Virus record (IMG/VR): IMGVR_UViG_3300029153_000010
Location: 1-34,984 of that record
Direction: 5' to 3' (one strand)
DNA: 34,984 bases
Source: a virus
A model generated the notes under the pieces. It saw only the letters and a list, made by a program, of their open reading frames with translations. It searched no databases and was not told the DNA's origin. The translations under genes were made by a program, and so were the position numbers. Shown one piece after another: positions 2,236 to 29,386 of this stretch (position 1 is its first letter; the number at the start of each line of letters is the position of its first letter).

Positions 2236-2535
2236 ATGAGTAGCGATCTCGCATTAGCCGTCACATTGTCTGCCGCAATAGCTTCAGCGGCTGTTTTGCG
2301 CAAGCGAATTTATGCCGCTGACGAGTTTCGTCAAATGGGATTGCTCGACTGGTGCGGACACATATCGCTGATAGGCATTGTCACCATCTTGGCGACATGG
2401 CCTATCGGCTGGATGCCATTGACCGTGGCGGGGCTTTTCTTGCTACTTCCTCTGTACCCAATTGCCATCCTTGGCGTTGCCGGCGTATTGGTCGAAACTT
2501 TCTCAGACCTCTGCAGCCTTTTCAGGAAACGCTAA
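2236..2535 (+). CDS. integral membrane protein (99 aa), candidate exclusion protein
   Basis: The ATG at 2236 follows an AGGAG ribosome site at 8 bases spacing. The protein has three hydrophobic stretches: about residues 3-20, 42-58 and 61-86, with a charged loop (residues 22-34) and a basic C-terminus (LFRKR). No enzymatic motif is seen. It sits in the mnt operon between the immunity block and the giant virion protein gene, the same slot as sieA in P22. It converges on the polyvalent protein gene, and the two stop codons overlap by a few bases with no terminator between them. The function is unknown; superinfection exclusion is a position-based guess. Confidence 0.65.
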   Translation: MSSDLALAVTLSAAIASAAVLRKRIYAADEFRQMGLLDWCGHISLIGIVTILATWPIGWMPLTVAGLFLLLPLYPIAILGVAGVLVETFSDLCSLFRKR

Positions 2536-5500
2536 TCAGCCTGATTGTATAACCGATTAAACCTATCCACCTCCTTTTTTATTCGCTTCTCTATCATTTC
2601 TAGTCTCCGCTGTTTAGCCTGGTCTGACAGAGTGGTGCTCGACTCCACTCGCTCTCTCTGCTCTCGCAGCGCTTTCCACCGCTTCTCGGTAGAGTCGAGG
2701 ACGGGCTTCAAGCGCAGCTTGTCTCGGTGCTCTCGAACGAAATCTACGCGCTCTCGACCTGATATCGCTTCTCGCCGCTTCACTATCTGATTGATTTCAT
2801 CGCGTCGATCGTAAAACTTCGACTGATCTGCATATGGAAGCACCCGTCCGCTGATTTTCCTTACGAACGGAATGTCGCGGGCCTCCAGCTCTTCAAAGGA
2901 GGACAGCTTTTCTGCCAGATTAACGGAGCGATTGGTGAAGAAGTCGTAGGCGCTGCCTCCGTAGTAGCTTACGAGATAGCTCATTACATCCGGACTTAGA
3001 TCTACTCCCCCTGTCATCTGCTCGTTTCCGCCTGTGATTTTGTTCAGGGTTTGAGCTATAGCCTGATACGCCTCTGGGGTGCTCCGGAACTTCATGGAGC
3101 TGTCCGGCTTCGGTGTCCCGCCCGGGAAGTCCTCACTGTAAATCGGGCCGCCCATAAAGTTTTCGTTAAGAGGCAGCGTTACGATGGGCTTGATTACGGT
3201 TGGGGTAACGTTTTTTGCTATCAACCCGAATGCTTCTTCGGACTGCTCAAACCCGATTGGCGAAAAGCTGCCCAGGGCGGCCAGCGTGACATTGCTTGCG
3301 GCATTGGCGGCTGATTGACTCTCGCTGAACAGCAGGTGCTCTGCTTGAGTGCCCATTACCGGGAAAATGTTGTAGCCGTAAGGCAGGGGAATCGTCCAGT
3401 ACTCCCCGGGCTCGCCGCCCACCAGTGACTTCATGATAACGATGTTCCGCTCTTTCACGTAGTCGGGCACCTTGTCCCACCAGTTCACCTCGTCGTCGTC
3501 GTCACCGGCCACAAGGCGGTTCAGCAGTGACAGCATAAACCCGCTCACGGCCATACCGGCGGCAATCTTCTGGGCCTTATTCATGCGACCCCACATCGGG
3601 TCGCCCTTCCTGCCGTTTAGCCGGCCCAGGGTGCGCACGAAGTTGTTGGTGCCTTGGATGGACGCGTTGGCGAACATGAAGAAGGCGTTTAACGCTGTCC
3701 CAACCTCACCTCGCCGGTTGAAGTTCACGGTCATGTTCTTGGCCAGGCTGGCCGCTTTCTCTCGGCTCACTCCGGCGTCAATCGCGTTCACGTAAGCCGA
3801 CAGTCGCACGCCGTTTTCAATGGCGCTGTTGGTGTTCTCCACCCAGTCCGTCGTCCACCGGAATGCCCGGCGCAAACCGTTCAGGCTGATTGGTCCGCCG
3901 CTGGCCATCTTCACCAGCTTCTCAATGTCCTGTACCTGGCCGTCGATGTCCTTCATGTCAAACCAGCCGGTTTTTGCACCATCGGCACGGAACTGGTCAA
4001 AGTGTTTCTGCCACTCCCCCGCTTTGCCCTCCAGCGCCTTGCCTTTCAGGCTGGCGTTAATGGCGCGAATGGCGGTGCCGGTGTCCTTCAGGGTCTTGGC
4101 GGCAATTTTCTCACCGGCAATCTTCCCATCTTCGGCGGTCTGCTCAGAGGTCAGATTCAGCAGTGCGGTCTGGATATCCCGGGAGAAGTTGGAAACCACA
4201 AACTCCGGACTGTAGCTCGTATTCAAGGACGACATTATTCTGGTCACATAGCTCAATGACCGTATAAAAACGTTGTTGTTATCGGGCCCAATGTTTCGCA
4301 TGGCATTCATCAGGCGCTCGTCTTCGATCTTCACGTAAAGGGTTTTGCCGCTCTCCTTCACGGTGAAGTATCGGTCGCTCATCATGGCCATGGGCACCAC
4401 CTGCTCCCTGACCTCAATGCGCGTTTTACCGGTGGCGGGGTCTTTCACTCGAACCGGCTTGCGCTCAACTTCCGGGTTTTCCTCGGTGTAAACCTTCCAG
4501 TAGCTGTCGTTCGGGAACTCGCGCACCAGGTTTAGGAAGGTCTGGCCAACCTCGTTTTTCCGGTGACGCAGAACGGCTTCGGACAAATCACTTATGGCGT
4601 AAGCGACTGGCGAGGCTGACAGGCTGCGCCGGCCGCCTGCAATCTTGGATTCAGCACCCGAAATGGCAAAGCCCTTGCCAATACGGGGACGCCCATCCTG
4701 AGATTCGTCGGCAGCCCAGCCTTTGAGCGGCACGTAATTCTGGTATGTGGCTTCCCAGGCGCCTATAGCGTCGGAGTCCAGGAGACCTGCTTCCTGCAGG
4801 ATTGAGCGGCGCCTTTCCAGCATCCGGTAAACCTGATCAGCCAGCATCTTGTACTCGCCCAGTTTTCCGGATTGCTCGATTCTTCCGATTACCTCTCTGG
4901 CCTCGGCATCGGTCATGCCAGAACCGCCGTCCGGCATTTCCTCGTTACGCTCGGCGATAACCGCGTTACGCTCTGGTGCGTGCTTGGCGTACAGGTACTC
5001 GTCCAGCTGCTCCAGGCTCACTTCGTATTCCGCCATATCCCGGGCCAGCGGCTCTACCATTTGCTCCTGAATCAAGCGGATATCGTTTTCGACTTTGCCG
5101 TGGAACAGCTCTTCGGCCACGTAAGCATCGGCGCTTTCCGGAATGTCGCCAGCGGTTTTCTTGATTTGCTCCTGCACGCCTTTCAGCACGGTGAACTTGT
5201 CGGCAATTTTGGCCACTGCTCGACGCACAAGCGTGTCGCTTGGGGCGCTGAAGGGCTGGGCGTCCAGCGTGGGGATACCGCCATCGGTTCGACTGAAAGC
5301 GGGAATATTGGCCTCTGATTCACTGGCTGAAGGGTTCTTGATATCAGCTGAGAAGTCGCGGCGGCCAGCCTGGCGGCCTCGGCGAAAGGCATTGGCAATC
5401 AGGTCAATGCGGCTGCGAAGGTCGTTAGCGCTGATGTTCGGCTTTACCCATCCAGCTTTGACCAGCAACCGCTTAATACCTCGCGTTAGGGTGCGCCAAC

Positions 5501-8500
5501 CTTTCTTAATCCAGTTGGGCCGTTCTTGCGCCAGAGTGCCCAGCATTTCTTCGGCGTACAGGCGATTGGCCTGCTCTTCATTGAGCCCCACAGACTCGGC
5601 CACCGGACGGTATTCATAAACGGTCTTCTGCCAAAGGGCCGCTACCTCCCGGCTTTGCTCCGCCGCCTGCTGAATATCGCGGTAAAGCTGTTGGCGATCT
5701 TCCGGCTTAAAGAATCCCAGGCCCTTGTGAACCAGGATCTCTTCCTGCAACGCTTCCGTGACCGCGCTTTCGCTATCAAAAGCTGTTCGGACGAGGTGAA
5801 CGGTGTTGTTCGCCCCGACGTACTGCCCGGCGATGGTGGCGCCTCGGTCCCTGGCCGGGTCGAACCCGGGAAGGGTGGTGGCGTTATCGTGGATTTCGAC
5901 CTGGACATCATCGGCGCCCTTGTACTGGCTGAGGAAGCGGTTCACTGTAGCCTGCACTCGGGCCTTGGGCAATCCCTTGGCGGTGGCGCCCTGCTTGCGC
6001 ATGAACATCGCCACGTTGCCCGCTTCGTCTTCCCGGGTTTGGATTGCCTGAAACAGGTTGTCATACGCGGCGCGGATTTCTGGGATTTCTGCCGCTTCCG
6101 GATAGGGATAGCTGTCGCTGTCCTGCATGCCCAGGGCTTCCGAAGCCTCCCAGTATTCCTCAGACACGATGTTGGCCAGGTAGTCGTTACTGGCGCCCTG
6201 GTCGCGCAACTTCTCGATCACATAGCTCTCAAAGGCGCGGGCGGCCATTTCGATATCCGTGGACCAGTAGGCCTTGGTGCGCACTTTGTCCAGCTTCTGG
6301 CTGCGCTGCTTGAGCTTGGTGCGGTTCACGGTGCGGCGCACGTTGCGGAAGGCTTCGGCCACCTCCGGGCGCACGGAGATGTGGGCAGAACCTTCAGTGG
6401 CATACCCCATATGCTGAGTGGTTCCGCGCTCCCGGCTGAAATAGTTGTCCAGCGAATGGAACCACTCATGGGCCAGCGAGCCCGCGCCATCCTTTTTGGT
6501 CAGGTTGATCACGATGTTGCCTGGCTCGTAATGCGCCTTCGGGGCCCGCTTGCCGCCTTTGCCCCGGGCGCCAAATGCCAGGCCCAGCTCGCCGTTCAGG
6601 GACAGTGCGCGGGCGGGAACATTCAGGATGCCAGCCAGGTCCATCAGGCCATCGTAGGCGTCGTTCAAATCCTGCTGACGACGCCCCTGCTCTACGTAGT
6701 TGCCAAACTGTACGCCCCGGAAGCCGAAGGTTTCTGCAAAAGCATCTGGCGTTACGTCGCCGCCATTGCGGTGGTCCTTGCCCACTCGGGGTGAGTTGCT
6801 TTCCTTCCGGTGGTTGGGGATCTGCTTCATCTTGGCCAGTCGGTCTTCCAGCTCGGCCTGGTTTTCCTGCAGATAAGTGCGGGCTTCTTTCAGGCTGGTG
6901 AAGTCATCTCGAATGCGCACTACATCGCTGCCGATCTTCTTTCCGATGAAGATGTCCTTGGCGTCGTGGCGGTCGGAGTAAATGTCGAAGCGGACGTTCT
7001 TGGCGGCCTTGCCTTTCTGGCCCAGGGAGTCGTGCACCTCGCGGAACTTGTCGATCGCCTCCTGCTTGCTGTCCGCTGCCACCAGGCGGCGCGGCATGTT
7101 GCCGAAGGCGCCGGTTTTGGCGGTGCGCTCGATCACCCACTTATCGAAGCTGCCTTTTTCGCCATCGAACATGCTGTAGTGCGCTGAGAAGAATCGCAGG
7201 CCCTTCAGGCTTTTCTCGTGGCCGACAGCGGCGTACAGGTCGGCCCGGTTGAATACATGCTGCTCCAGGGCGCGATAGCCATCCTTGCGGGCGAATTCGC
7301 GCATATCATCCACGTTGAATTCGCCTTCGATGACGGATTCAGTGAAGTTGCGCAGCGCTTCTACCTGGCGCGTCCAGCCCTTGAGTTTCCAGCCCTTGCG
7401 AGGCTTGGGCGGCACCTCATCTCGGGCGGCATGGGCAAAGCCAACGGCTTCCGGGTCGGCGCCGGAGTCCAGCAACTTCTGGTAATCCGGCTCCGGCCAG
7501 GATTCGGACAGCGGCACAGCGGCGGTGTCTTTCGCCTTGGCGTCCTGGAGCTTGCTGGCGTAATCCTTTCGGGCGCCTTCAATCTTCTCGCCGAAGTCCT
7601 CGATGGGCTGGCTTGGTGCTGTACCCTGCTTCGGGCTTGCCTCTGGGATCTCGGGCTGGGCTGGCTCCTGCTGCGGAGCCGCCTTGCTCTTGGCTTCTGC
7701 AAGGCTCTCCCCGGAGGTGTAATTGTTTCCCGCCCCGCGTTCCGCGTCATTGGCGTAGACCGGGAAGAATTTGATCCGGTTGCCGCCTACGCCGAACGAT
7801 TCATCAGTGATAATCTGCCCGTCATTTGAGCGCCAGATTTTACGGTTACTATCTTTCTTCCAGGTGAGGCTTGATGCGCCTGTGGCGGCTTCTGCCGGAC
7901 GCTGAGCTGAGCCTTCTTGCTGGGCTTGGGCTGCAGGCTGATCAAACATATTGCCCTGACCACGGGCCTCCGCCTGATCTATGGCGCTATCGCTGCCAGA
8001 CAGAACAAAGTCATCCGCCTCGGCGTCTGCCTGGGCGCGCTGCTCTTCCTCGCGGCGGCGAGCGGCCGCTTCCTGTTCGGTTTGTTGGCGCTGCTGCTCT
8101 TGCTCGGCCAGATCCTGCTCAGTTTGCGCCTGCAGATCCAGTTCTGGCGCTACTTCTTGCTGTCCGCCTTCCGGTTGTCCGCTTTTATCTGCTCCAGCGG
8201 CGTCTTGCTCAGGTACTCGTTCACCTGCTCGTTGCTCCTGCCCTGGCGCTTCAGTCGCTCGGCCGCTCTGTGCCGAATCAAGTCGTCCGCTGCCCGGTTC
8301 ATTTGCTCCCTGTTCATAGTTCATCAACTCCCGTTTCAGGTCTTTGACCACATCGGCCCGCTTTTCACCATCGTACACCCGGCGGGCGGCGCGGTTCACC
8401 ATGTCGTTCAATGCCGGCGTGGTAGTTACCCGGCCAATCAGGTCCAGGCTGCGGGCGCTTTGCTCGGTAATGCCCTCGTTCGCCTCTGTGGCGATCTGGT

Positions 8501-10721
8501 TGCCCGCTTCGCTGGCCCGGTCTGCGTTATCGTTCAGGCTCTTGAAAAGCCGCTTGTCGGAGTTCAGGCGCTGCCTGAGCGAATCCAGCACTTTGAGGCG
8601 ATCTTGCATCAGGCTGACTTCTTGCGCGTCATCCCCGAACAATCCGCCCTGGTCGCCTTGCGCTTCGGCAAATTCAGCTGCACGGATTTCGTTAATCAGC
8701 AACTGGCGCTGGTATTCGGTTTGCGGCTCCACCCTCTGGAACGCATCGGCGGCGGCCTCTTGCCGCCCCTCTTGCTCGAAGCTGCGGCCAATCGCGGCGC
8801 CGTCTTTCTCGCTCAGCTGGCCAGCGGTAACCATGCCAAACACGTTATCGCCCAGGCCAGCCAACGATTCGCCGTCGCGCACCACCTGGCTGGACGGCAG
8901 ATCGAATGTCTTGCGCACCTCAGTTGTCGGCACGTCGCTGTCACGGAACACCTTGGCCACGTCTACAGGCTCTGCCTTGCCATCGGCAATATTGTTCATG
9001 GCCGCCTCTACCCGGGCGCCGGCAACGTCTACGCCGTCGGATTCATTCACAATGCGGGCGTTGATTTCACCCTGGCCCAACCGGCGGGCAAGGTCCACGC
9101 GGTGGTGGCCGTCCGCCACGAACAGGGAGCCGTCATTCCGGCGATGAAGCAATACAGCGCCGGCGCGGTTATCATCCCACCTCTGAACGCCAGATAGGCG
9201 CTGATCTACGCCTTGATCGTTTACGCGGGAGCGGAACTGGTACTGCTGTGGATCAACCTGGATTTGATCGACCGGAACACGGAAAACGCCGGTGCCGTTG
9301 TCGGTCATGGTTTGCTGTTCCGGTTCTAGCTGGCTTTCCGTTGTCGGCTCCTGCTCAGCCTGCTGCGCCTGTGGAACCTCCAGCTCAGCGCTGAAATCAG
9401 ACGGCATTGGCCCCGGCTGCTGGCTCAAATCAAGGCCGCGCGGCTGCTCAGGCTGGGTGGGAGCGCTTTCTTCGGTTACCGGCTCAGCTTTCTGCTTCCA
9501 TTGCGGGGTTTCTGGCTGCGCCTGGCCTGTGCCCGGATCTTGCGGCGCTACCTGTTGAGTGTCTGGGTCAAGGATCGGCGTATCATCAAGCGGCTGACCC
9601 CCCTTACCTTCCTCTCCAGGCTGATTGCCAGTGCCGGGCTTCTGCATCGCTGTTTTGGCTTCTTGGCCAGCCTGAGTGCTTGAGCCGGCAACGGTGCCAT
9701 AAACGCCACCACCAACGGCGCCACCAAGCCCCCGATCTACACCTTCGGCCAGAGTCATTTCCTTGCCGGTGCCCAGCCTCTCACCGGCGTACTCAATAAT
9801 GCCTTCCTGAACGAATTCGGTCATGCCTTCGCGGCCGCCTGCCTTACCGCCCTGGCTGGCAATTCGGCCTGTTGCGTAAGCCACGCCTCGCTTCAGCGCT
9901 TCTTTGCCAAACTGCTCGGCCTGAACCTGCGTGAACCCCTTTACACCGAAACGCTCGAACAACGCAGATCCCAGCGCAAACGGAGTGGCTTCCAGTACAT
10001 CCGTAAGATCGGCTTCTTCCTTGCCCTTGTTCTGTGCGCGCACCTCGCCAATTTCGCCAGAACGGGCCATAACATAGCCGGGCAAATTCAGGGTTACAGC
10101 CACCATGTCCGGAATGGAGCGAGCGCCCTGCTCGATACCAAAGCCCAGCACTTCAGCCCAAGCGCTACCGCTCAGTGCACCGTTCTCTCCAAATTCCTGC
10201 TTGACGCCTTCCCATGTACTCTCTGGAACGTAGCCAAGATCGGAGTCTGACCAGTAGTCTGCCGCGATATCCAGAGGCTCTTTCCTGCCTGAGCTCTCTT
10301 TGTATTCGCGGTACTCATCCGGCTTTAGGTAGCTTGGAATAATGTCGCCATCTTTCCAGACAAAACCGCCAAGAGGCATCTGCTCATCGGCGTATTCGGC
10401 CAGCTCGTTGCCTGCTCGGAAAAGCCCTCCAGCCAGCTCGCCCGCACGCTCACCAGCCCCGCGAATCAGGTTCCAGCTTGGAGAGCCCTCGTCTTCGTTG
10501 GCCGCCTTTGAGCGCTCTTGCCTAGGAAGATCGAGGCCTTTCGGCTGGCCCGGCTCAGGGCCGCCCACCTGCTCGCCGCCAATTTCCACGCGGGAATCCA
10601 CGAGCTGCAAACCCTTGGGTTCGCCCGAACCATTCGGGAGCGGTTCGGCCTTGCTTTTCCAGGCGGGTGCAGATTGGCTTGCGCTGTCATCCAGTGGCTG
10701 GGCCTTGGCTTTCCAGTTCAT
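2532..10721 (-). CDS. giant polyvalent virion protein (2729 aa), probable ejection protein
   Basis: This protein strings together many domains, as in phage large polyvalent proteins that are packaged and injected. Visible parts: three copies of a W-K-x-K-A-x-P-(L/V) motif (residues 3-10, 21-28, 408-415), the last two followed by P-(K/R)-G-L-x-L; an Ala/Gly-rich part that may be membrane-active (about 225-350); a ParB-like nuclease domain at about 480-560 with D537-G-H-H-R541; a Gln/Glu-rich linker (about 800-930); an LPD-type domain with the zincin motif HEWFH at 1418-1422; a second, degenerate zincin-like segment near 1660 (EEILVHKGL); and a long helical C-terminal region (about 2150-2500) like the LPD38 domain. 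It closes the late operon, 5 bases after the 451-aa gene. Domain names come from family knowledge; processing or injection is inferred. Confidence 0.85.
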   Translation of the reverse strand: MNWKAKAQPLDDSASQSAPAWKSKAEPLPNGSGEPKGLQLVDSRVEIGGEQVGGPEPGQPKGLDLPRQERSKAANEDEGSPSWNLIRGAGERAGELAGGLFRAGNELAEYADEQMPLGGFVWKDGDIIPSYLKPDEYREYKESSGRKEPLDIAADYWSDSDLGYVPESTWEGVKQEFGENGALSGSAWAEVLGFGIEQGARSIPDMVAVTLNLPGYVMARSGEIGEVRAQNKGKEEADLTDVLEATPFALGSALFERFGVKGFTQVQAEQFGKEALKRGVAYATGRIASQGGKAGGREGMTEFVQEGIIEYAGERLGTGKEMTLAEGVDRGLGGAVGGGVYGTVAGSSTQAGQEAKTAMQKPGTGNQPGEEGKGGQPLDDTPILDPDTQQVAPQDPGTGQAQPETPQWKQKAEPVTEESAPTQPEQPRGLDLSQQPGPMPSDFSAELEVPQAQQAEQEPTTESQLEPEQQTMTDNGTGVFRVPVDQIQVDPQQYQFRSRVNDQGVDQRLSGVQRWDDNRAGAVLLHRRNDGSLFVADGHHRVDLARRLGQGEINARIVNESDGVDVAGARVEAAMNNIADGKAEPVDVAKVFRDSDVPTTEVRKTFDLPSSQVVRDGESLAGLGDNVFGMVTAGQLSEKDGAAIGRSFEQEGRQEAAADAFQRVEPQTEYQRQLLINEIRAAEFAEAQGDQGGLFGDDAQEVSLMQDRLKVLDSLRQRLNSDKRLFKSLNDNADRASEAGNQIATEANEGITEQSARSLDLIGRVTTTPALNDMVNRAARRVYDGEKRADVVKDLKRELMNYEQGANEPGSGRLDSAQSGRATEAPGQEQRAGERVPEQDAAGADKSGQPEGGQQEVAPELDLQAQTEQDLAEQEQQRQQTEQEAAARRREEEQRAQADAEADDFVLSGSDSAIDQAEARGQGNMFDQPAAQAQQEGSAQRPAEAATGASSLTWKKDSNRKIWRSNDGQIITDESFGVGGNRIKFFPVYANDAERGAGNNYTSGESLAEAKSKAAPQQEPAQPEIPEASPKQGTAPSQPIEDFGEKIEGARKDYASKLQDAKAKDTAAVPLSESWPEPDYQKLLDSGADPEAVGFAHAARDEVPPKPRKGWKLKGWTRQVEALRNFTESVIEGEFNVDDMREFARKDGYRALEQHVFNRADLYAAVGHEKSLKGLRFFSAHYSMFDGEKGSFDKWVIERTAKTGAFGNMPRRLVAADSKQEAIDKFREVHDSLGQKGKAAKNVRFDIYSDRHDAKDIFIGKKIGSDVVRIRDDFTSLKEARTYLQENQAELEDRLAKMKQIPNHRKESNSPRVGKDHRNGGDVTPDAFAETFGFRGVQFGNYVEQGRRQQDLNDAYDGLMDLAGILNVPARALSLNGELGLAFGARGKGGKRAPKAHYEPGNIVINLTKKDGAGSLAHEWFHSLDNYFSRERGTTQHMGYATEGSAHISVRPEVAEAFRNVRRTVNRTKLKQRSQKLDKVRTKAYWSTDIEMAARAFESYVIEKLRDQGASNDYLANIVSEEYWEASEALGMQDSDSYPYPEAAEIPEIRAAYDNLFQAIQTREDEAGNVAMFMRKQGATAKGLPKARVQATVNRFLSQYKGADDVQVEIHDNATTLPGFDPARDRGATIAGQYVGANNTVHLVRTAFDSESAVTEALQEEILVHKGLGFFKPEDRQQLYRDIQQAAEQSREVAALWQKTVYEYRPVAESVGLNEEQANRLYAEEMLGTLAQERPNWIKKGWRTLTRGIKRLLVKAGWVKPNISANDLRSRIDLIANAFRRGRQAGRRDFSADIKNPSASESEANIPAFSRTDGGIPTLDAQPFSAPSDTLVRRAVAKIADKFTVLKGVQEQIKKTAGDIPESADAYVAEELFHGKVENDIRLIQEQMVEPLARDMAEYEVSLEQLDEYLYAKHAPERNAVIAERNEEMPDGGSGMTDAEAREVIGRIEQSGKLGEYKMLADQVYRMLERRRSILQEAGLLDSDAIGAWEATYQNYVPLKGWAADESQDGRPRIGKGFAISGAESKIAGGRRSLSASPVAYAISDLSEAVLRHRKNEVGQTFLNLVREFPNDSYWKVYTEENPEVERKPVRVKDPATGKTRIEVREQVVPMAMMSDRYFTVKESGKTLYVKIEDERLMNAMRNIGPDNNNVFIRSLSYVTRIMSSLNTSYSPEFVVSNFSRDIQTALLNLTSEQTAEDGKIAGEKIAAKTLKDTGTAIRAINASLKGKALEGKAGEWQKHFDQFRADGAKTGWFDMKDIDGQVQDIEKLVKMASGGPISLNGLRRAFRWTTDWVENTNSAIENGVRLSAYVNAIDAGVSREKAASLAKNMTVNFNRRGEVGTALNAFFMFANASIQGTNNFVRTLGRLNGRKGDPMWGRMNKAQKIAAGMAVSGFMLSLLNRLVAGDDDDEVNWWDKVPDYVKERNIVIMKSLVGGEPGEYWTIPLPYGYNIFPVMGTQAEHLLFSESQSAANAASNVTLAALGSFSPIGFEQSEEAFGLIAKNVTPTVIKPIVTLPLNENFMGGPIYSEDFPGGTPKPDSSMKFRSTPEAYQAIAQTLNKITGGNEQMTGGVDLSPDVMSYLVSYYGGSAYDFFTNRSVNLAEKLSSFEELEARDIPFVRKISGRVLPYADQSKFYDRRDEINQIVKRREAISGRERVDFVREHRDKLRLKPVLDSTEKRWKALREQRERVESSTTLSDQAKQRRLEMIEKRIKKEVDRFNRLYNQAD

Positions 10722-19702: not shown

Positions 19703-20196
19703 TCGAACACCGGCAACTCGCTGATCAGTTCAGGCTCAGTGGGCGCAGACCGGCTGCCTGCCTCAACATCACTCAGGATCTGGTAGCACTTGGCCCACAC
19801 TTGATCTCGCCACTCAACGCCCGCCTGTCCCTCGGCCGCGAACTTCGTGACGGAGCTGGTTGCGTAGGTGCACAAACTTAGGATGCCATCGTAGTTTCTC
19901 TCAGTAGCGGTTGCGTCCATGTGATTCTGTACGGCTTTCTCAAATCTTGCCTTCAAGCCCTCGGCTTCAGCTTGGCGCACCGCCACTGGATCTGCTGGCA
20001 ATTCGATCTCGCCCAGCTTCACGCCGTCTGAGCCTGCGTACACTGGCCGGGGCTTGCCCGCCTCCTGAACGTCAGCCCACAGCCCTTGCGGGGTGTCGTA
20101 GCCATGCACCACGGCATCCACTGGCAGTGCCGGCAGATCTACGGTTTGGCCGTTATGCTCCAGCGCTCGGCCAGTGTCGGTTTCAATGATTCTCAT
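19687..20196 (-). CDS. DUF4376-like tail fibre assembly protein
   Basis: 169 residues. The N-terminal half resembles tail-associated proteins beginning with a residue-listing strand (MRIIETDTGRALEHNG) and a region around residue 70-85 (PADPVAVRQAEAEG). The C-terminal half (about 92-150) matches the DUF4376 pattern NYDGILSLCTYATS, then a Trp-rich V-E-W-R-D-Q-V-W helix and a Y-Q-I-L end. Such proteins are usually chaperones or small parts of tail fibres. It overlaps the 3' end of the reverse transcriptase gene by 14 bases, which ties DGR expression to late tail genes. Confidence 0.65.
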   Translation of the reverse strand: MRIIETDTGRALEHNGQTVDLPALPVDAVVHGYDTPQGLWADVQEAGKPRPVYAGSDGVKLGEIELPADPVAVRQAEAEGLKARFEKAVQNHMDATATERNYDGILSLCTYATSSVTKFAAEGQAGVEWRDQVWAKCYQILSDVEAGSRSAPTEPELISELPVFEWPAA

Positions 20197-21202
20197 CGTC
20201 GCGCCTCAGTGTCAGGTTGTTCAGGATGCTGTTGGTCGTGTCCCAGGCGTTGCAGTGCTTCGCGTAAGCCAGATAGCTGTTCACCTTCTGGCGGAAGTCC
20301 GCCACGGTGGCCTGACCCCGGGAAAACTTGCGGGAAGCCCGCTGCATGTCGCGCTTGAATCGCTTGACGTTGCGCTTGCGCGGGAGAATATGGGTTGACC
20401 AGGTTCGATAACCACACCAATCCACGCCGGCAGAGGCGGGCTTAATGCAGGTCTTGGGGTTGAGCTTCAGGCCGGAATAGGCAATCTCTCCGGCCAGTTG
20501 ATTCAGGCGCTTGTGTGCCTGCTGCTTGCTGGGTGCCAGGATCACGATGTCATCCATGTACCTCAGATAGCGCCCGGCGCCTTTGTTATCGGTCATGGCG
20601 TGATCTACGCGATCCAGAACGATGTTGGCAGACAGCTGGCTGGTCAGCGCCCCGACAGGCAAGCCAATGCCGTCTTCGTGGCCGTAGGCGCCCAGAATAG
20701 TGCGCCAGAGATTCAAGGTGCGGTCGCAGTCGATCACCCTTTCTGCCTGCGCCATTACCGCGTCGTGATTTACGCTGGCGAAGAATTGGCTTACATCGGC
20801 CTGCACCACGTACACCGTGCCCCAGTTGCGCCGGCACTGCCTGAGCATCTTTTGCAGCGACAGAATGGCCGCATGCGTCCCTTTGCCCTTGCGGCAGGCG
20901 TAACTGTGGTCAATGAACCGGCGCTCGAACATGGGCTCCACCAGATCCACCAGGGCGTGGTGAACGATGCGATCCGGAAAAGGCGGGGCCTGTATGCGCC
21001 GCATCTTCGGCTCCAGAACCACAAACTCTCTGGCCCGCGATGGCTCCCACGTCTGCCAAACCAGATGGTTGTGCAGGTTCAGCAACTTCTCTTCCAGCCT
21101 GGCCGTATAGCCGGCTACCTCGCCACGGTACCGCTTGCCCTTTCGGGCTTCCCGGTAGGCCGCAAGCAGGTTGTCAAAATCGACAATGTCGTCGTACAGC
21201 AT
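20183..21202 (-). CDS. brt: DGR reverse transcriptase
   Basis: 339 residues from the ATG at 21202, chosen because AAGGA lies 5 bases before it; an ATG at 21208 overlaps that ribosome site. Reverse transcriptase motifs in order: QADVSQFF with catalytic D136, the DGR-type LPVGALTSQ at 181-189 (SQ replacing the QG seen in group II intron and most retroelement enzymes), and the active site YMDD at 215-218. No maturase, RNase H or endonuclease domain is present, which matches DGR enzymes of about 300-400 residues. It lies downstream of avd and the template repeat in the BPP-1 order. It copies the TR RNA with errors at adenines and, with Avd, feeds cDNA to the variable repeat. Confidence 0.97.
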   Translation of the reverse strand: MLYDDIVDFDNLLAAYREARKGKRYRGEVAGYTARLEEKLLNLHNHLVWQTWEPSRAREFVVLEPKMRRIQAPPFPDRIVHHALVDLVEPMFERRFIDHSYACRKGKGTHAAILSLQKMLRQCRRNWGTVYVVQADVSQFFASVNHDAVMAQAERVIDCDRTLNLWRTILGAYGHEDGIGLPVGALTSQLSANIVLDRVDHAMTDNKGAGRYLRYMDDIVILAPSKQQAHKRLNQLAGEIAYSGLKLNPKTCIKPASAGVDWCGYRTWSTHILPRKRNVKRFKRDMQRASRKFSRGQATVADFRQKVNSYLAYAKHCNAWDTTNSILNNLTLRRDDENH

Positions 21203-21479
21203 GACCATCCTTGTAGTTGGTGATCTGCAGCCACAGATGCCGCCGCAGTCTGTTTATGTTTCGCCTTTCGGCGAGGAAAGCGGCCCCGAGTGATTGGGCG
21301 CTGTCGCAGAGCTCGTAAGCGCTGCGCTTCTGGCCGGTTTTGTCGCTCGCGAGGCGGGCCCCGATGTTCGTGTTGGCGTTCGACGAATCGTTGTTGCAGT
21401 TCACGTACCAGAGCCCGGCATTCGCGCCATTGCTCCAGTTGCCGCCGACGTTGGGGCTGCCGAAATGAGCCGCTTCCCT
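21203..21479 (-). ncRNA. DGR template RNA region (contains TR and 3' spacer)
   Basis: This 277-base non-coding gap between avd and the reverse transcriptase holds the template repeat (21346-21456) and a 143-base spacer. In BPP-1 the corresponding spacer is part of the RNA that the enzyme and Avd bind. A hairpin CGCC-GAAA-GGCG (21262-21273) has a GNRA-type loop and may be part of that RNA. Ends are set by the flanking genes; the true transcript ends are not visible. Confidence 0.85.
21346..21456 (-). repeat. DGR template repeat (TR)
   Basis: 111 bases, aligned without gaps to the variable repeat at 21885-21995 (offset 539). The two differ at 11 positions: 21367, 21374, 21380, 21391, 21392, 21400, 21406, 21421, 21430, 21439 and 21440. 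All 11 are A in the TR coding strand, out of 26 adenines; none of the other 85 bases differs. If read in the VR frame, TR carries asparagine codons (AAC/AAT) at eight of nine changed sites and TAC at the ninth, the usual design that maximises amino acid variety. Confidence 0.98.
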
Positions 21480-21878
21480 TTACTTTTGTGACCGGAGCCA
21501 ACCGCCCAGCATTCTGCCAAGCTCGTTGATATGCTCTGACCACACCTTGTAACGCTTGGGCGTTATGTACTGAAATCGCTCAGCCTTTCTCACAAGATGC
21601 CGAAACACCTCAATTTCCACGTCCAGCTCGCTGAGCGTCGTCTTTTTGTGGTGCCGCTTCCATGCGGTCAGGGTTAAACGCAATATCTTGTCCAGGCATT
21701 GCCGGGTATCCGCTGTCAGCAGGTGCCTTTCCGCTTTTGGGTAATTGCTTCGTGTCAGCGCGATATGCGTGTAGTCGTCCAATTCTTCCAATTTGGTCAG
21801 CATCGCCTCGAATGGGCGAAGGTGCTGTCTTGGGGCGCTACCGCGCCCCTGAACATGATTCATGGCGTCGTGACTCAT
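21480..21878 (-). CDS. avd: DGR accessory variability determinant (Avd)
   Basis: 132 residues, close to the 128 of BPP-1 Avd. It is helical and basic with repeated K/R helices (KILRLTLTAWKRHHKK; EVFRHLVRKAERFQYITPKRYKVW), consistent with the four-helix Avd that forms a pentamer and binds the reverse transcriptase and RNA. The ATG at 21878 overlaps the stop of the diversified fibre gene (ATGA), so they are translationally coupled. A frame extends further upstream through the fibre gene but is a shadow. The 5' coding part also contains the GC-rich hairpin at 21832-21849 that may guide target recognition. Confidence 0.93.
   Translation of the reverse strand: MSHDAMNHVQGRGSAPRQHLRPFEAMLTKLEELDDYTHIALTRSNYPKAERHLLTADTRQCLDKILRLTLTAWKRHHKKTTLSELDVEIEVFRHLVRKAERFQYITPKRYKVWSEHINELGRMLGGWLRSQK
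21832..21849 (-). promoter_or_regulatory. DGR target-site hairpin/cruciform with GRNA loop
   Basis: On the coding strand GGGGCGC-GGTA-GCGCCCC forms a perfect 7-bp GC stem with loop GGTA. It lies 35 bases beyond the 3' end of VR. Phage DGRs such as BPP-1 need a short GC-rich hairpin or cruciform with a four-base GRNA loop downstream of VR for efficient homing; GGTA fits GRNA. Here it is embedded in the start of avd. Confidence 0.85.
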
Positions 21879-23824
21879 GACACCCTCGCGAGGCGGGCCC
21901 CGATGATCGTGTAGGCGTCCGACGAATCGCCGTTGCAGGTCACGCACCAGAGCCCGGCAGTCGCGCCACTGCTCCAGAGGCCGCCGACGTTGGGGTAGTA
22001 TTCGCCGACGTCGAGCCAATACCTCTGGTCTGGTAGCGTCGCGGTGTTGTCGTTGCTGGTTGAGAAGGTGTTCGCAATCCACGACTCATCACCGGTTGCC
22101 CGGAACGTAATCGGGTACTGAGTGCTGCCACCGTTCGGGACGCTCTCGCCCGTACTAGCCCAGGCCCCGTTATAGTTACGACGCTCAATGGTGCCGCTCA
22201 AAGTGCGGACACCGTCCATCCATTGGCGCACGTTGCCCCACAGCCCCACCATACCGCGATACGTGGCCTGTGCTACGTCCGAGGCGTCCACGTTGGCCGC
22301 GCTGGATTGGTTGACGCGCCCCTGCCCGGTGACGGTCTGGCTGTCCATGGAGGCGTTTTCGGTCAGATAGAGCCACTGAATAGCCAGCCACATATCGTAG
22401 TGCCAAAGCCGGAACCCGGCGACGCCGGAGACGTTGCGGGCCTCGGCATTGCTGATCGCTGTACCGATGGTCATATTTACCCAGGGCAATACACCGGGCA
22501 CAGATTGCATTTTGCCGCCGCTTTCACTGGCCTGATATTTGCCTACCTGAAAGCTGTCCACTTCTACGCCATCAAGCACAAAGGCCGGCATGACGCTGAA
22601 TCCGGTCAGTGGCTGGTCGCTGATCCACCATGCCGGATCGCCACCGGCAGTGCCGCGCTTCCAGTAGAATTTGGGGATCTCCACCATGTCCTGGCCATCA
22701 ACCACCACATCGGAGATGCCGCCCCACACAGGGTGACCGTTGAAGTAGCTGGTTGACGGGGTGGTGATGGTGTTGCCTGCCTCGTCAATGTGGTCCCAGG
22801 TACCGCCGGGGCCGCCTGTTGCTCTGAGTGCCACGCCAATAACCTGAGCGGCCAGCACGGTCACGGTGGCGCTGTAGGCGGCGGACTCAGCGCCGTACTG
22901 ATCCTCGGCCACCACTTCAAAGGTATAGTCGGTATCGCTAACTACGTCCGGGGCGGTCACGTCCACCAATTCGCCGTCCTGAATGCCATCGGTGGTTGCA
23001 AACACAAAGCCGCCATCGTCAAAAATGCGATACACCACGTTGTGGCCGTCTGCATCGGTAGCGCCAGTGAACGACACCTGAAACGTGGAGTTCTTGCCGG
23101 TCTGCGTCGGGGCGCTGATGGTGATTGGCCCCTGCGGCGGGTTGTTGGCCACTACATCAGCACTGACGGCCTCGGTCGCGCTGCGGTTGCCCAGATTATC
23201 GACTGCATAAACGGTGGCCGACACACTGCCGCCTGCCGGGATATCGACAGCTTTTGACAGCGTGGCTTCGCCGGCTGTGGCGGTGACGGTTTCGGTGGTG
23301 TTGTCCCACCAGGTGACGACGAACGAGGCGATGGAGCCGCCGGACAGAAGGCTTGTTGCGCTGACCTGGATGGTGTAGTTGCCTGCGTCGTAGACTTCGG
23401 CGGGGGCGGTTAGGGTTTGAGATAGGACTGACGATGTTTGAACCTCAGACCAGGCCGAATCCTGTCTTGCGTACTGCTTGCCGTTTGCCGGGGCTTCTGG
23501 GACTTTGGCTCCTGCCAGAGCTTTGATTGTGTCGAGAGTCCCGGCAGTTAAGCGGGCCTCAATCGGCGTCGCAGAGGCGTGAGGAAGAGCTGTCGTGCCC
23601 TCCTGTGCCCGCTCTATGGACCACTGGCCGGAAGTAGTGCCCGTTACTTTGACAATCTCAATATGGTTTGAATCTGCGGTTGATTGAAGCGTGGCCAAAA
23701 AGTATTCGCCACTGGAGAGTGCCGGCGTGTTCGCTTCGCCCGTCACCTGAATGATTTGATCACTTTCAGTGATTGCGCCTGCCAGTTCAGCGCGAACGTT
23801 GTTGGCAAATATCTGGTTGCTCAT
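21875..23824 (-). CDS. DGR-diversified tail fibre / receptor-binding protein
   Basis: 649 residues. Residues 1-105 form a phage tail N-terminal module (IFANNVRAELAGAITESDQ, GEYFLATL). Residues 130-225 and 235-335 look like two Ig or cadherin-like domains (the second has TGATDADGHNV). From about 340 to the end is a C-type-lectin fold of the formylglycine-enzyme-like kind used by DGR targets (NAEARNVSGVAGFRLWHYDMW, RGMVGLWGNVRQW), ending in the variable repeat and IGARLARVS. Overlap ATGA with the 105-aa gene upstream and ATGA with avd downstream. It corresponds in role to Mtd of BPP-1 but is longer and differently built. Variation would change host-receptor specificity. Confidence 0.92.
   Translation of the reverse strand: MSNQIFANNVRAELAGAITESDQIIQVTGEANTPALSSGEYFLATLQSTADSNHIEIVKVTGTTSGQWSIERAQEGTTALPHASATPIEARLTAGTLDTIKALAGAKVPEAPANGKQYARQDSAWSEVQTSSVLSQTLTAPAEVYDAGNYTIQVSATSLLSGGSIASFVVTWWDNTTETVTATAGEATLSKAVDIPAGGSVSATVYAVDNLGNRSATEAVSADVVANNPPQGPITISAPTQTGKNSTFQVSFTGATDADGHNVVYRIFDDGGFVFATTDGIQDGELVDVTAPDVVSDTDYTFEVVAEDQYGAESAAYSATVTVLAAQVIGVALRATGGPGGTWDHIDEAGNTITTPSTSYFNGHPVWGGISDVVVDGQDMVEIPKFYWKRGTAGGDPAWWISDQPLTGFSVMPAFVLDGVEVDSFQVGKYQASESGGKMQSVPGVLPWVNMTIGTAISNAEARNVSGVAGFRLWHYDMWLAIQWLYLTENASMDSQTVTGQGRVNQSSAANVDASDVAQATYRGMVGLWGNVRQWMDGVRTLSGTIERRNYNGAWASTGESVPNGGSTQYPITFRATGDESWIANTFSTSNDNTATLPDQRYWLDVGEYYPNVGGLWSSGATAGLWCVTCNGDSSDAYTIIGARLARVS
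21885..21995 (-). repeat. DGR variable repeat (VR) with IMH at its 3' end
   Basis: Encodes about residues 610-647 of the 649-residue fibre protein. Compared with TR it changes nine residues: N to L, N to S, N to T, Y to C, N to T, N to G, N to D, N to Y and N to I. The last 21 bases (21885-21905) are GC-rich and identical to TR, the place expected for the initiation-of-mutagenic-homing site. The gene ends 8 bases further on. Confidence 0.98.
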
Positions 23825-27406: not shown

Positions 27407-28207
27407 TTAGCCGCGCTCCGCGTACAGGTGACCGGCCGCTTTCGGGTCGATCATCTCGTAGCCGAACACGTTCAGGCCTCGGATCAACTTGCCGAAGTCT
27501 TGCGGGTTCGGCAGCGTCTCCATGTTGGTCATCTGGCTGGCGAAGGTCAGCGCCTTCTTGTGGCCAAACATGACGTTGGTGGCTTTGTTGCCGGTAGTGC
27601 CGTCGGTCACAACACTCATGTTGTTGGACACGTACACATCGAACCGGTCCAGCTGGCCAACCTTGCCGTTTCGGAACACGGAGTCGTTGTCGCCCATGGC
27701 GCTGGCGTCGCGCAGGTCGGACTTCTTCAGCATGCCGTTCATCCACGCGGGGAGGATGATGTAGCGCTGATCGTCCGGCACGTTCTGCTCGTCCAGCACG
27801 GAGCCGCAATCCACGATTACGTCCATGATGTTGGCCTTGGTGATCGCCACCGGCGCGCCGGCTTCGCCCAGGTTGTAGGAGCCAGACTTCACGCCCGCTG
27901 CAGCGCCGGTGTTCTCGGCGGCCACATCGGCGTAGACATCGCCCAGGATTTGGGTGTCGATGGCAATCTTCATCTGCTGACCGGCGTCATCAGACCAGTT
28001 GTCCATCAGCTTGATGTCCGCCTGATAGGCGTCGATGTCATTGACCTCAAAGGCAAAGTATTTCGCCTGGTCAATGTGCAGCTCTACCTTGTCGGAAGTC
28101 GGCTTTTCGTAGTTCAGGCCGCCGCCAATTTGGTAATCGTTGATCACGATGGATGGGGTGGTGCGGATCTGCACCGTGTCGCCCTGGCTGCGAACTTCGC
28201 CTTCGTA
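27407..28207 (-). CDS. major capsid protein, exon 2
   Basis: Encodes 266 residues plus stop and continues exon 1 (29246-29386) after intron removal, giving a 313-residue coat protein. Exon 2 starts with YEGEVRSQGDTVQIRT, joining the exon 1 end EIANTD. The body (LHIDQAKYFAFEVNDID, YIILPAWMNG, then VGQLDRFDVYVSNNM) has the pattern of the HK97-fold coat of podophages of this group. An in-frame GTG at 28174 could make exon 2 seem a separate short gene, but the reading frame extends to the splice site. It lies after the scaffold gene, as expected for a coat gene. Confidence 0.9.
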   Translation of the reverse strand, partial: YEGEVRSQGDTVQIRTTPSIVINDYQIGGGLNYEKPTSDKVELHIDQAKYFAFEVNDIDAYQADIKLMDNWSDDAGQQMKIAIDTQILGDVYADVAAENTGAAAGVKSGSYNLGEAGAPVAITKANIMDVIVDCGSVLDEQNVPDDQRYIILPAWMNGMLKKSDLRDASAMGDNDSVFRNGKVGQLDRFDVYVSNNMSVVTDGTTGNKATNVMFGHKKALTFASQMTNMETLPNPQDFGKLIRGLNVFGYEMIDPKAAGHLYAERG

Positions 28208-29245
28208 CAGGCGTGTTATCCCGAAGGCTCTTTATCCCTCGGTTCTGCCGGTTTCATTCCCGACAGTTCGGACTATATCTTCACCCTTTGCGGGAGCCGT
28301 AAGGCTTTCTTCCATCCGCGTGCCGGCGAACTGTCCTGTAGTACTCGCGAGAGTAACAGGCGGTGCAAAGGCCTTTGCGTCTACTGCTGTAGATCACAGT
28401 TTGGCATTCAGTGCACTGGCCGACGGGTGTCTGGCACTCGTGGGAATGCATGTCTGATAAATGGCTCAGCTTGTAAAGCATTGGATCTGGAACAAATTCT
28501 TCTATTAAGCGCCCGAATTTTTTGCTTTCTCGGGTGTTCGCTTCAATGAAGAACTGGCTGCCTGGGCTGCACGTTTTCTTGCAGCGCTTTTTGAAGGTTA
28601 TCCCGTGGTTGTCAATAAACCACCGAATTACCAGATCCACTTCTTCTTCTGAGCACATTGTTGCAATGTTCGTGGCGACTGAGGTGACTCGACCGTGCTT
28701 GTTAGTGTTCCGCCTGGCGTGGCCATCATCCATATACCAAATGGCAATCGCTTCTGGCGTCAACATGTCAAGAACCTGCTCGGTAAGGCGCTTTTTGCCT
28801 TCAGGGTAAAGCCAGCGCTTGACTTGGCCAAAGTACGGATGACTAACTCCGAACTGGTACGCCGTGTACCTGCCTCCCGGGCCATTTCTAACCTTGGTGA
28901 CATTGACCTGCCTTCCTCCAAGAGCCCAACCAAGGCGCCTCGCCTTCCACTCAACATAGAGCTTCTGGCTTTCACCGTGAAGAACCCTCATTGATCGGGA
29001 TTCATACGGATACTTACCTTGACCAAGCCTCTGACGAACCTGAATGTGTCCGTCTCCAAGCGCCATTCCGACAATCACGCCGCGCTTTTCTTTGTTCATT
29101 GCAACACCTATTTCGTGGCACTGAGGCCATGAGGTATGAAATGCATCCCTAGTCTCTGAACCTTCCCAAGTCCGTTTGGGCTTGGCTGCTGATTCCCGTC
29201 TCAGGGTTCCAGCAATTCACCAGATTTTACACCGACCACGATTTA
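28208..29245 (-). ncRNA. group I intron in the coat gene
   Basis: 1038 bases. P1: exon end ACACCGAT (29246-29253) pairs with GTCGGTGT (29229-29236), with U.G at the 5' splice site. P10: exon 2 start TACGA pairs with TCGTG (29237-29241), next to the P1 strand. Core boxes: P AATTGCTGGAA (29207-29217), Q AATCAGCAGCCAAG (29181-29194), R GTTCAGAGACTA (29150-29161), S AAGATATAGTCC (28270-28281). The last base is G (28208). The first intron codon in frame is TAA, so unspliced RNA stops at residue 47. The R and S boxes flank the nuclease ORF, so the ORF is inserted in a peripheral loop on the P7-P8 side. Confidence 0.95.
28281..29099 (-). CDS. LAGLIDADG homing endonuclease (intron-encoded)
   Basis: 272 residues. 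Motif 1 is GVIVGMALGDGH (7-18, acid D16) and motif 2 AIAIWYMDDGH (117-127, acids D124/D125), so two LAGLIDADG motifs are in one chain, an active monomer type. A C-terminal zinc-ribbon-like part has C229-x2-C232 and C245-x2-C248. The stop TGA lies against the S box of the intron. It would cut intron-less coat genes at the exon junction and copy the intron by repair. There is no obvious ribosome site before the ATG, so expression may be limited or coupled to intron RNA structure. Confidence 0.93.
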   Translation of the reverse strand: MNKEKRGVIVGMALGDGHIQVRQRLGQGKYPYESRSMRVLHGESQKLYVEWKARRLGWALGGRQVNVTKVRNGPGGRYTAYQFGVSHPYFGQVKRWLYPEGKKRLTEQVLDMLTPEAIAIWYMDDGHARRNTNKHGRVTSVATNIATMCSEEEVDLVIRWFIDNHGITFKKRCKKTCSPGSQFFIEANTRESKKFGRLIEEFVPDPMLYKLSHLSDMHSHECQTPVGQCTECQTVIYSSRRKGLCTACYSREYYRTVRRHADGRKPYGSRKG

Positions 29246-29386
29246 ATCGGTGTTCGCAATTTCGGCGAAACAGGTGCGCTCATAGAGCTTTTGCACCATT
29301 TTTCCGGACCATACCTCCGGGATAAAACCCGGGGAGCTGGAGCTGGAATAGTCCGGATGGCTTGCGTCGCGAGTTGGACCTGCCAT
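29246..29386 (-). CDS. major capsid protein, exon 1
   Basis: Encodes the first 47 residues, from ATG at 29386 (ribosome site GAAGGAG, 7 bases spacing) to EIANTD. The frame meets TAA at the first base of the intron. The sequence (DYSSSSSPGFIPEVWSGKMVQKLYERTCFAEIANTD in two parts) has the coat N-terminal style: a disordered start, then a helix contacting the next subunit. It follows the scaffold gene by 40 bases and must be spliced to exon 2 at 28207 for a full coat protein. Confidence 0.92.

Follow-up and report, generated by a model that had tools for sequence, protein, structure and literature searches.

The window, as we call the whole 34,984-base IMG/VR virus record analyzed here, carries on its minus strand a coat (major capsid) gene interrupted by 1,038 bases (28208..29245). 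Exon 1 (29246..29386, minus strand) comprises 47 codons, from the ATG at 29386-29384 to the GAT at 29248-29246. Exon 2 (27407..28207, minus strand) opens with TAC at 28207 and comprises 266 codons and a stop, ending at 27407. Joining of 29386-29246 to 28207-27407 generated an open frame of 313 residues (47+266), as anticipated in a first-pass annotation that had described the insert as a group I intron containing a homing endonuclease. The joined protein matched the Pfam family Phage_capsid_4 (PF25209, carried by exon 2), and exon 2 matched phrog_267, the major head protein. The peptide predicted across the joint is AEIANTDYEGEVR, and the predicted ligated exon sequence is AACACCGAT-TACGAAGGC. 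The first codon of the insert is an in-frame TAA, and the reading frame confirmed that unspliced RNA would direct the synthesis of a 47-residue product. An intron explains why this coat gene seems broken; annotation would treat it as two fragments.

Elsewhere in the window, a diversity-generating retroelement (20183-21208, minus strand; 21346-21456; 21885-21995) combines a reverse transcriptase (PF00078, phrog_1423) with two repeats, a template of 111 bases and a variable copy lying at the 3' terminus of a tail-protein gene (21875-23824); the 11 differences between the two repeats all fall at A residues of the template (11/11). A 2,729-residue polyvalent protein with LPD1, LPD5, and LPD38 domains is encoded at 2532-10721 (minus strand). 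The phage looks temperate, since it carries integrase, excisionase, and anti-repressor genes.

Empty-site relatives of the coat gene

The coat of contig L030 is uninterrupted at the same joint and shares 94% (exon 1) and 99% (exon 2) amino acid identity with that of the window. The DNA of L030 aligned to window positions 32000-29244 and then from 28207 on, with 89-93% nucleotide identity. Because this match breaks at the joint, the 1,038 bases are present in the window phage and absent from its near twin. Alignment of the coat with intron-less relatives had been set beforehand as a test of the first-pass annotation; it revealed no extra residues at the joint, which lies inside a conserved NTDYEGE stretch and is contiguous in L030 and in more than 60 of the best 80 coat relatives.

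The final base of exon 1 is T in the window versus C in L030, and this T supplies the U.G pair required for group I splicing. Over the terminal 30 bases of exon 1, identity to L030 is 83%, versus 95% overall, and for this reason the terminal T may have been acquired by co-conversion.

The ribozyme core and its splice sites

The internal guide sequence GUCGGUGU (29229..29236, minus strand) pairs with exon 1 positions 29253-29246 to form P1 (ACACCGAU:GUCGGUGU), a helix of 8 bp with the U29246.G29236 pair at the splice site. The adjoining UCGUG (29237..29241, minus strand) pairs with UACGA of exon 2 (28207-28203) to form the 5-bp P10. When all junction shifts were scored, P1 and P10 of the window fit the homology-defined junction with no competing shift, and every relative tested had a clear best P1/P10 junction, either the homology-defined one or one located 1 or 3 bases off. 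The splice sites of the first-pass annotation (29246/29245 and 28208/28207) are thus borne out by the break in the L030 alignment and by P1 and P10 at the joint.

The remainder of the minus-strand insert has group I anatomy: the P, Q, R, and S boxes that the first-pass annotation had reported, helices P3 to P9 including the P3/P7 pseudoknot, and a terminal G. Core alignment located P4 and P5, from the P box to the Q box, at 29186..29215, the R box (5' strand of P7, GAGACUA, with one bulged base) at 29150..29156, and the S box (3' strand of P7, UAGUCC) at 28270..28275. Covariation located the 5' strand of P3 (UCUGGUG) at 29218..29224; its 3' strand (UGCCAGA) lies at 28430..28436. The 5' strand of P8 (CACCC, 28425..28429) pairs with GGGUG at 28286-28282. 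P9 (28266-28260/28251-28245) and a second P9-type stem (28242-28236/28227-28221) occupy 28221..28266.

The named structure was counted in introns of 14 contigs, whose cores were aligned with the endonuclease body excluded. Pairing was found in 94.7% of 760 cells and fell to 33-47% when one strand was slid. Both-sided changes occurred at 28 of the 56 pairs, and the covariation score was 0.421 versus 0.166 for shuffled data. P4, P6, and P7 are almost invariant; covariation is seen in P3, P6a, P8, P9, and the second P9 stem. In P7, the bulge is present and the outer pair shifts from G-C to A-U among related introns. P9 and the second P9-type stem are paired in 99% and 100% of the cells, respectively, with both-sided changes in 11 of 14 pairs. 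On the evidence of these alignments, the insert is a group I intron, exact to the base, with a covarying core.

Comparison with the Rfam model Intron_gpI (RF00028) produced a match at 29255-28249 on the minus strand (42.3 bits; E value, 3.6e-9). The default scan was empty because this score is below the gathering score of 50, and the match was visible in the E-value mode. Related introns of L007 (64.4 bits) and L008 (52.7 bits) exceed the gathering score. The low score of the window could indicate a decayed intron that has lost splicing and left a broken coat gene. This is very unlikely, since the core helices are all intact and covarying, P1 and P10 match the exons of the window phage itself, the coat exons are intact and 99% like those of L030, and the endonuclease frame is open. 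The comparison of that frame with its L003 homolog (dN, 0.076; dS, 0.87) indicates that it is under purifying selection.

Even less credit can be given to a coat made of two separately translated pieces, with nothing spliced. Exon 1 does end at a stop, and a GTG at 28174 is in frame with exon 2, but there is no start codon at the beginning of exon 2, the joint falls within a motif that is contiguous in relatives, and the insert has a full ribozyme anatomy. An assembly chimera might be suspected in an IMG/VR virus contig, which is probably metagenomic, but is scarcely credible given that the same arrangement is found in L002-L004 and in more than 10 other contigs from other samples. Although LAGLIDADG endonucleases are also found in inteins, insertion at the protein level, as an intein or otherwise in frame, is the least probable explanation of all: a TAA in the coat frame opens the insert, there are many stops in that frame, and the endonuclease is read in a different frame from a start of its own.

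An endonuclease gene that shares the P3 and P8 helices

The intron contains a gene (28281..29099, minus strand) for a 272-residue LAGLIDADG homing endonuclease, in a frame other than that of the coat. The endonuclease that had been proposed from the first reading matched PF03161 with an E value of 1e-24. A single chain holds two LAGLIDADG motifs with the catalytic acidic (Asp) residues, and G15-D16 and D124-D125-G126 are shared without change by 15 endonuclease sequences. The nearest solved structures, over residues 7-212, are I-SceI and I-WcaI (profile E value, about 1e-15), also retrieved with the predicted fold (mean pLDDT, 86; Foldseek E value, 2.8e-11). A scan of the genome contigs for the endonuclease returned distant endonucleases only, with 22-29% identity.

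The I-SceI-like match stops near residue 213. In the C-terminal tail (residues 213-272), Cys 229, 232, 245, and 248 are invariant in six aligned relatives, and these CxxC pairs point to a putative zinc ribbon. In the predicted model, the pLDDT of the tail is about 64-79 and the final residues are disordered.

A possible hairpin (AUACCU...AGGUGU; 29104..29137, minus strand) covers the ribosome-binding site of the gene. It is less paired than the core helices, with pairing conserved in 74% of the cells and a predicted occupancy of 0.37-0.82, so that masking of the site is no more than possible. From its place between P7 and the start codon, this hairpin may correspond to P7.1, which together with P7.2 marks the IA2 subgroup.

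The first-pass annotation stands for the intron, endonuclease, coat gene, sites, and product; it had overlooked that the 3' strand of P3, P8, and the endonuclease stop, located in P8/J8-7, lie within the endonuclease frame. A search for the 3' strand of P3 downstream of the R box found none there, and the partner UGCCAGA at 28436-28430 is inside the gene, where it also encodes residues 222-224 (Cys-Gln-Thr). It is unusual for this strand to follow most of the gene, but the placement is supported by covariation. In 11 introns with distinct P3 5' strands, 76 of 77 pairs formed with the intron's own partner. Reassignment of the partners gave a mean of 61.1 pairs, and 76 was reached in none of 100,000 shuffles. 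The encoded residue tracks P3, with UCUGG associated with Gln (CAG), CCCGG and UUCGG with Arg (CGG and CGA), UUUUG with Lys (AAA), and CCAUG with Met (AUG). Residues 222-224 accordingly occur as Cys-Gln-Thr, Cys-Arg-Thr, Cys-Arg-Ala, Arg-Gln-Ala, Arg-Gln-Pro, Cys-Lys-Thr, or Arg-Met-Ala. Because this in-gene strand and its partner show covariation across 11 introns, RNA pairing constrains the protein sequence, providing a clean case of an RNA fold and a protein sequence under constraint from the same bases.

Three other placements were rejected. The P3 3' strand that Rfam sets near 28990, within the gene, is not recurrent in relatives, whereas UGCCAGA at 28436-28430 is. A CAC-G-CGGAU pairing in the window and L008 was false, originating from a scan limited to 130 bases that missed the true strand. 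The site proposed by a free search in L124 and L123 was also false; the homologous register pairs 6/7.

P8 (CACCC/GGGUG) immediately follows the 3' strand of P3, and the stop UGA is in P8/J8-7. The nuclease domain is therefore located between P7 and the 3' strand of P3 (residues 1-221), and the putative zinc-ribbon tail is encoded in the P8 loop. The endonucleases of L137 and L141 (about 210 residues) stop inside the P3 3' strand, pointing to read-through of P8 as the origin of the tail, the direction of this change being inferred. In L123, L124, L118, and L121, the endonuclease frames continue beyond the S box, reaching about 10 bases short of the 3' splice site in L123 and L124 (296 residues).

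Probable mobility of the intron and comparison with known systems

Introns of this family occupy three neighboring sites. The first, after coat codon 47, is used in the window, L003, L122, L008, L009, and L126 and, by homology, in L123 and L124. The second, one base downstream, is used in L137 and L141, and the third, three bases downstream, in L005, L007, and L118-L121. Each intron has its own matching P1 and mostly a matching P10 as well; L137 and L141 have a weak P10. The window grouped with L005, L118, and L121 at full support in the tree of endonucleases, within a set that also holds L122. In the coat tree, the window grouped with the intron-less L030 and L034, far from the coats of L005, L118, and L121. 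Such discordance is what horizontal transfer by homing would produce, and the intron combines the two hallmarks of a mobile intron, presence or absence in close relatives and a tree discordant with that of the coat.

Among the best 80 coat relatives, 13 coats are interrupted somewhere: at codon 31 (L031-L033), codon 44 (L072), codon 47 (L058, L059, and L095, with the same intron as the window), codon 50 (L053, L102, and L103), near codon 97 (L054), and near codon 233 (L107 and L108). Insertions other than those of the window family occupy about six further sites, and in four of these insertions the endonucleases are of the LAGLIDADG_1, LAGLIDADG_2, and HNH types. In this group of phages, the coat gene is thus hit repeatedly.

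Several of these insertions have features of their own. The coat of L124, found via its endonuclease, has two introns, a related one at codon 47 and an endonuclease-free group I intron near codon 36 (L124:2550-2860; Rfam, 69.9 bits). Small group I introns without an endonuclease (68 bits) are present at L107:3549-3814 and L108:3327-3592, within exon 2 of these related coats near codon 233. In the insertions at codons 31 and 44 (L031:1964-2951, L033:1960-2951, and L072:1934-2991), a LAGLIDADG_1 gene stops 2 to 5 bases short of the 3' junction. No intron was found by Rfam in these three insertions; they do have a P1 that covaries with the exon (GCUGG/CCAGC and GAUGG/CCAUC), and boxes resembling R and S (ACAGACUGAG and AAGCGACAGUC) are seemingly inside the gene. 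L129 and L134 have two tandem LAGLIDADG_2-like genes upstream of a distant coat homolog.

Taken together, these comparisons make it almost certain that the window, from a tailed phage of temperate type, harbors a mobile group I intron with a LAGLIDADG endonuclease in its major capsid gene, predicted to splice itself out and to home. The intron RNA would fold into a standard ribozyme core and excise itself, with P1 and P10 positioning both splice sites, thereby restoring the 313-residue coat. The intron TAA would halt ribosomes at the 5' splice site. The I-SceI-like endonuclease would be translated from unspliced RNA, possibly restrained by the weak hairpin at its ribosome-binding site. It is predicted to cut the intron-less coat genes of co-infecting phages, and repair off the intron-bearing copy would spread the intron. 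Since the gene crosses the P3 3' strand and P8, translating ribosomes must disrupt the ribozyme in that copy of the RNA, and translation and folding of the same RNA would compete. Its expected cutting of rival coat genes also makes the endonuclease a candidate agent of interference between phages, of the kind shown for gp210 of phage PhiPA3 (PMC11620839).

The introns of this family are probably specialized for the capsid gene: P3 pairing would dictate residues 222-224, the zinc-ribbon tail would derive from read-through of P8, and the site would have moved by 1 or 3 bases with re-tuning of P1 and P10.

Capsid introns with endonucleases are already known. In the Cluster J mycobacteriophage LittleE, a group I intron with an endonuclease interrupts the major capsid gene, and its splicing was established by RT-PCR (PMC3706429). 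As in the window, the site is empty in close relatives. Unlike that of the window, which is of the LAGLIDADG type, lies on the same strand as the coat, and overlaps the ribozyme core, the LittleE endonuclease is of the HNH type and is encoded leftwards, in the opposite direction. Lactococcal phage Tuc2009, as described in a citation in the same paper, also has a group I intron in a capsid gene and resembles the window by that description. I-SceI and I-WcaI (PDB 1r7m and 6x1j), the closest solved structures, share 18% identity with the window endonuclease, and the tail is outside both matches.

Overlap between endonuclease genes and intron cores is known generally (PMC3984707), and dual coding by the P3 3' strand is therefore a variant of a known arrangement. 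In the cyanophage Pf-WMP3, the gene for I-PfoP3I contributes to P6a, P6, P7, P7.1, and P7.2 (PMC3428280). Both phage group I introns have an endonuclease gene that shares core helices, but I-PfoP3I is an HNH enzyme encoded in a DNA polymerase gene, and the helices shared in the window are the P3 3' strand and P8. In the T4 td, nrdD, and nrdB introns (I-TevI, II, and III), the endonuclease ribosome-binding site is in an RNA hairpin (PMC2988022). The hairpin of the window is similar, although predicted and weakly paired, and the endonuclease families and interrupted genes differ.

Among the open-licence papers searched, we found no report of the LAGLIDADG type in this coat family, of a dual-coded strand of P3, or of small site shifts. 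Relative to LittleE, the novelty lies in these three details. The present family adds to the known systems a well-supported LAGLIDADG capsid intron with empty-site controls and natural covariation.
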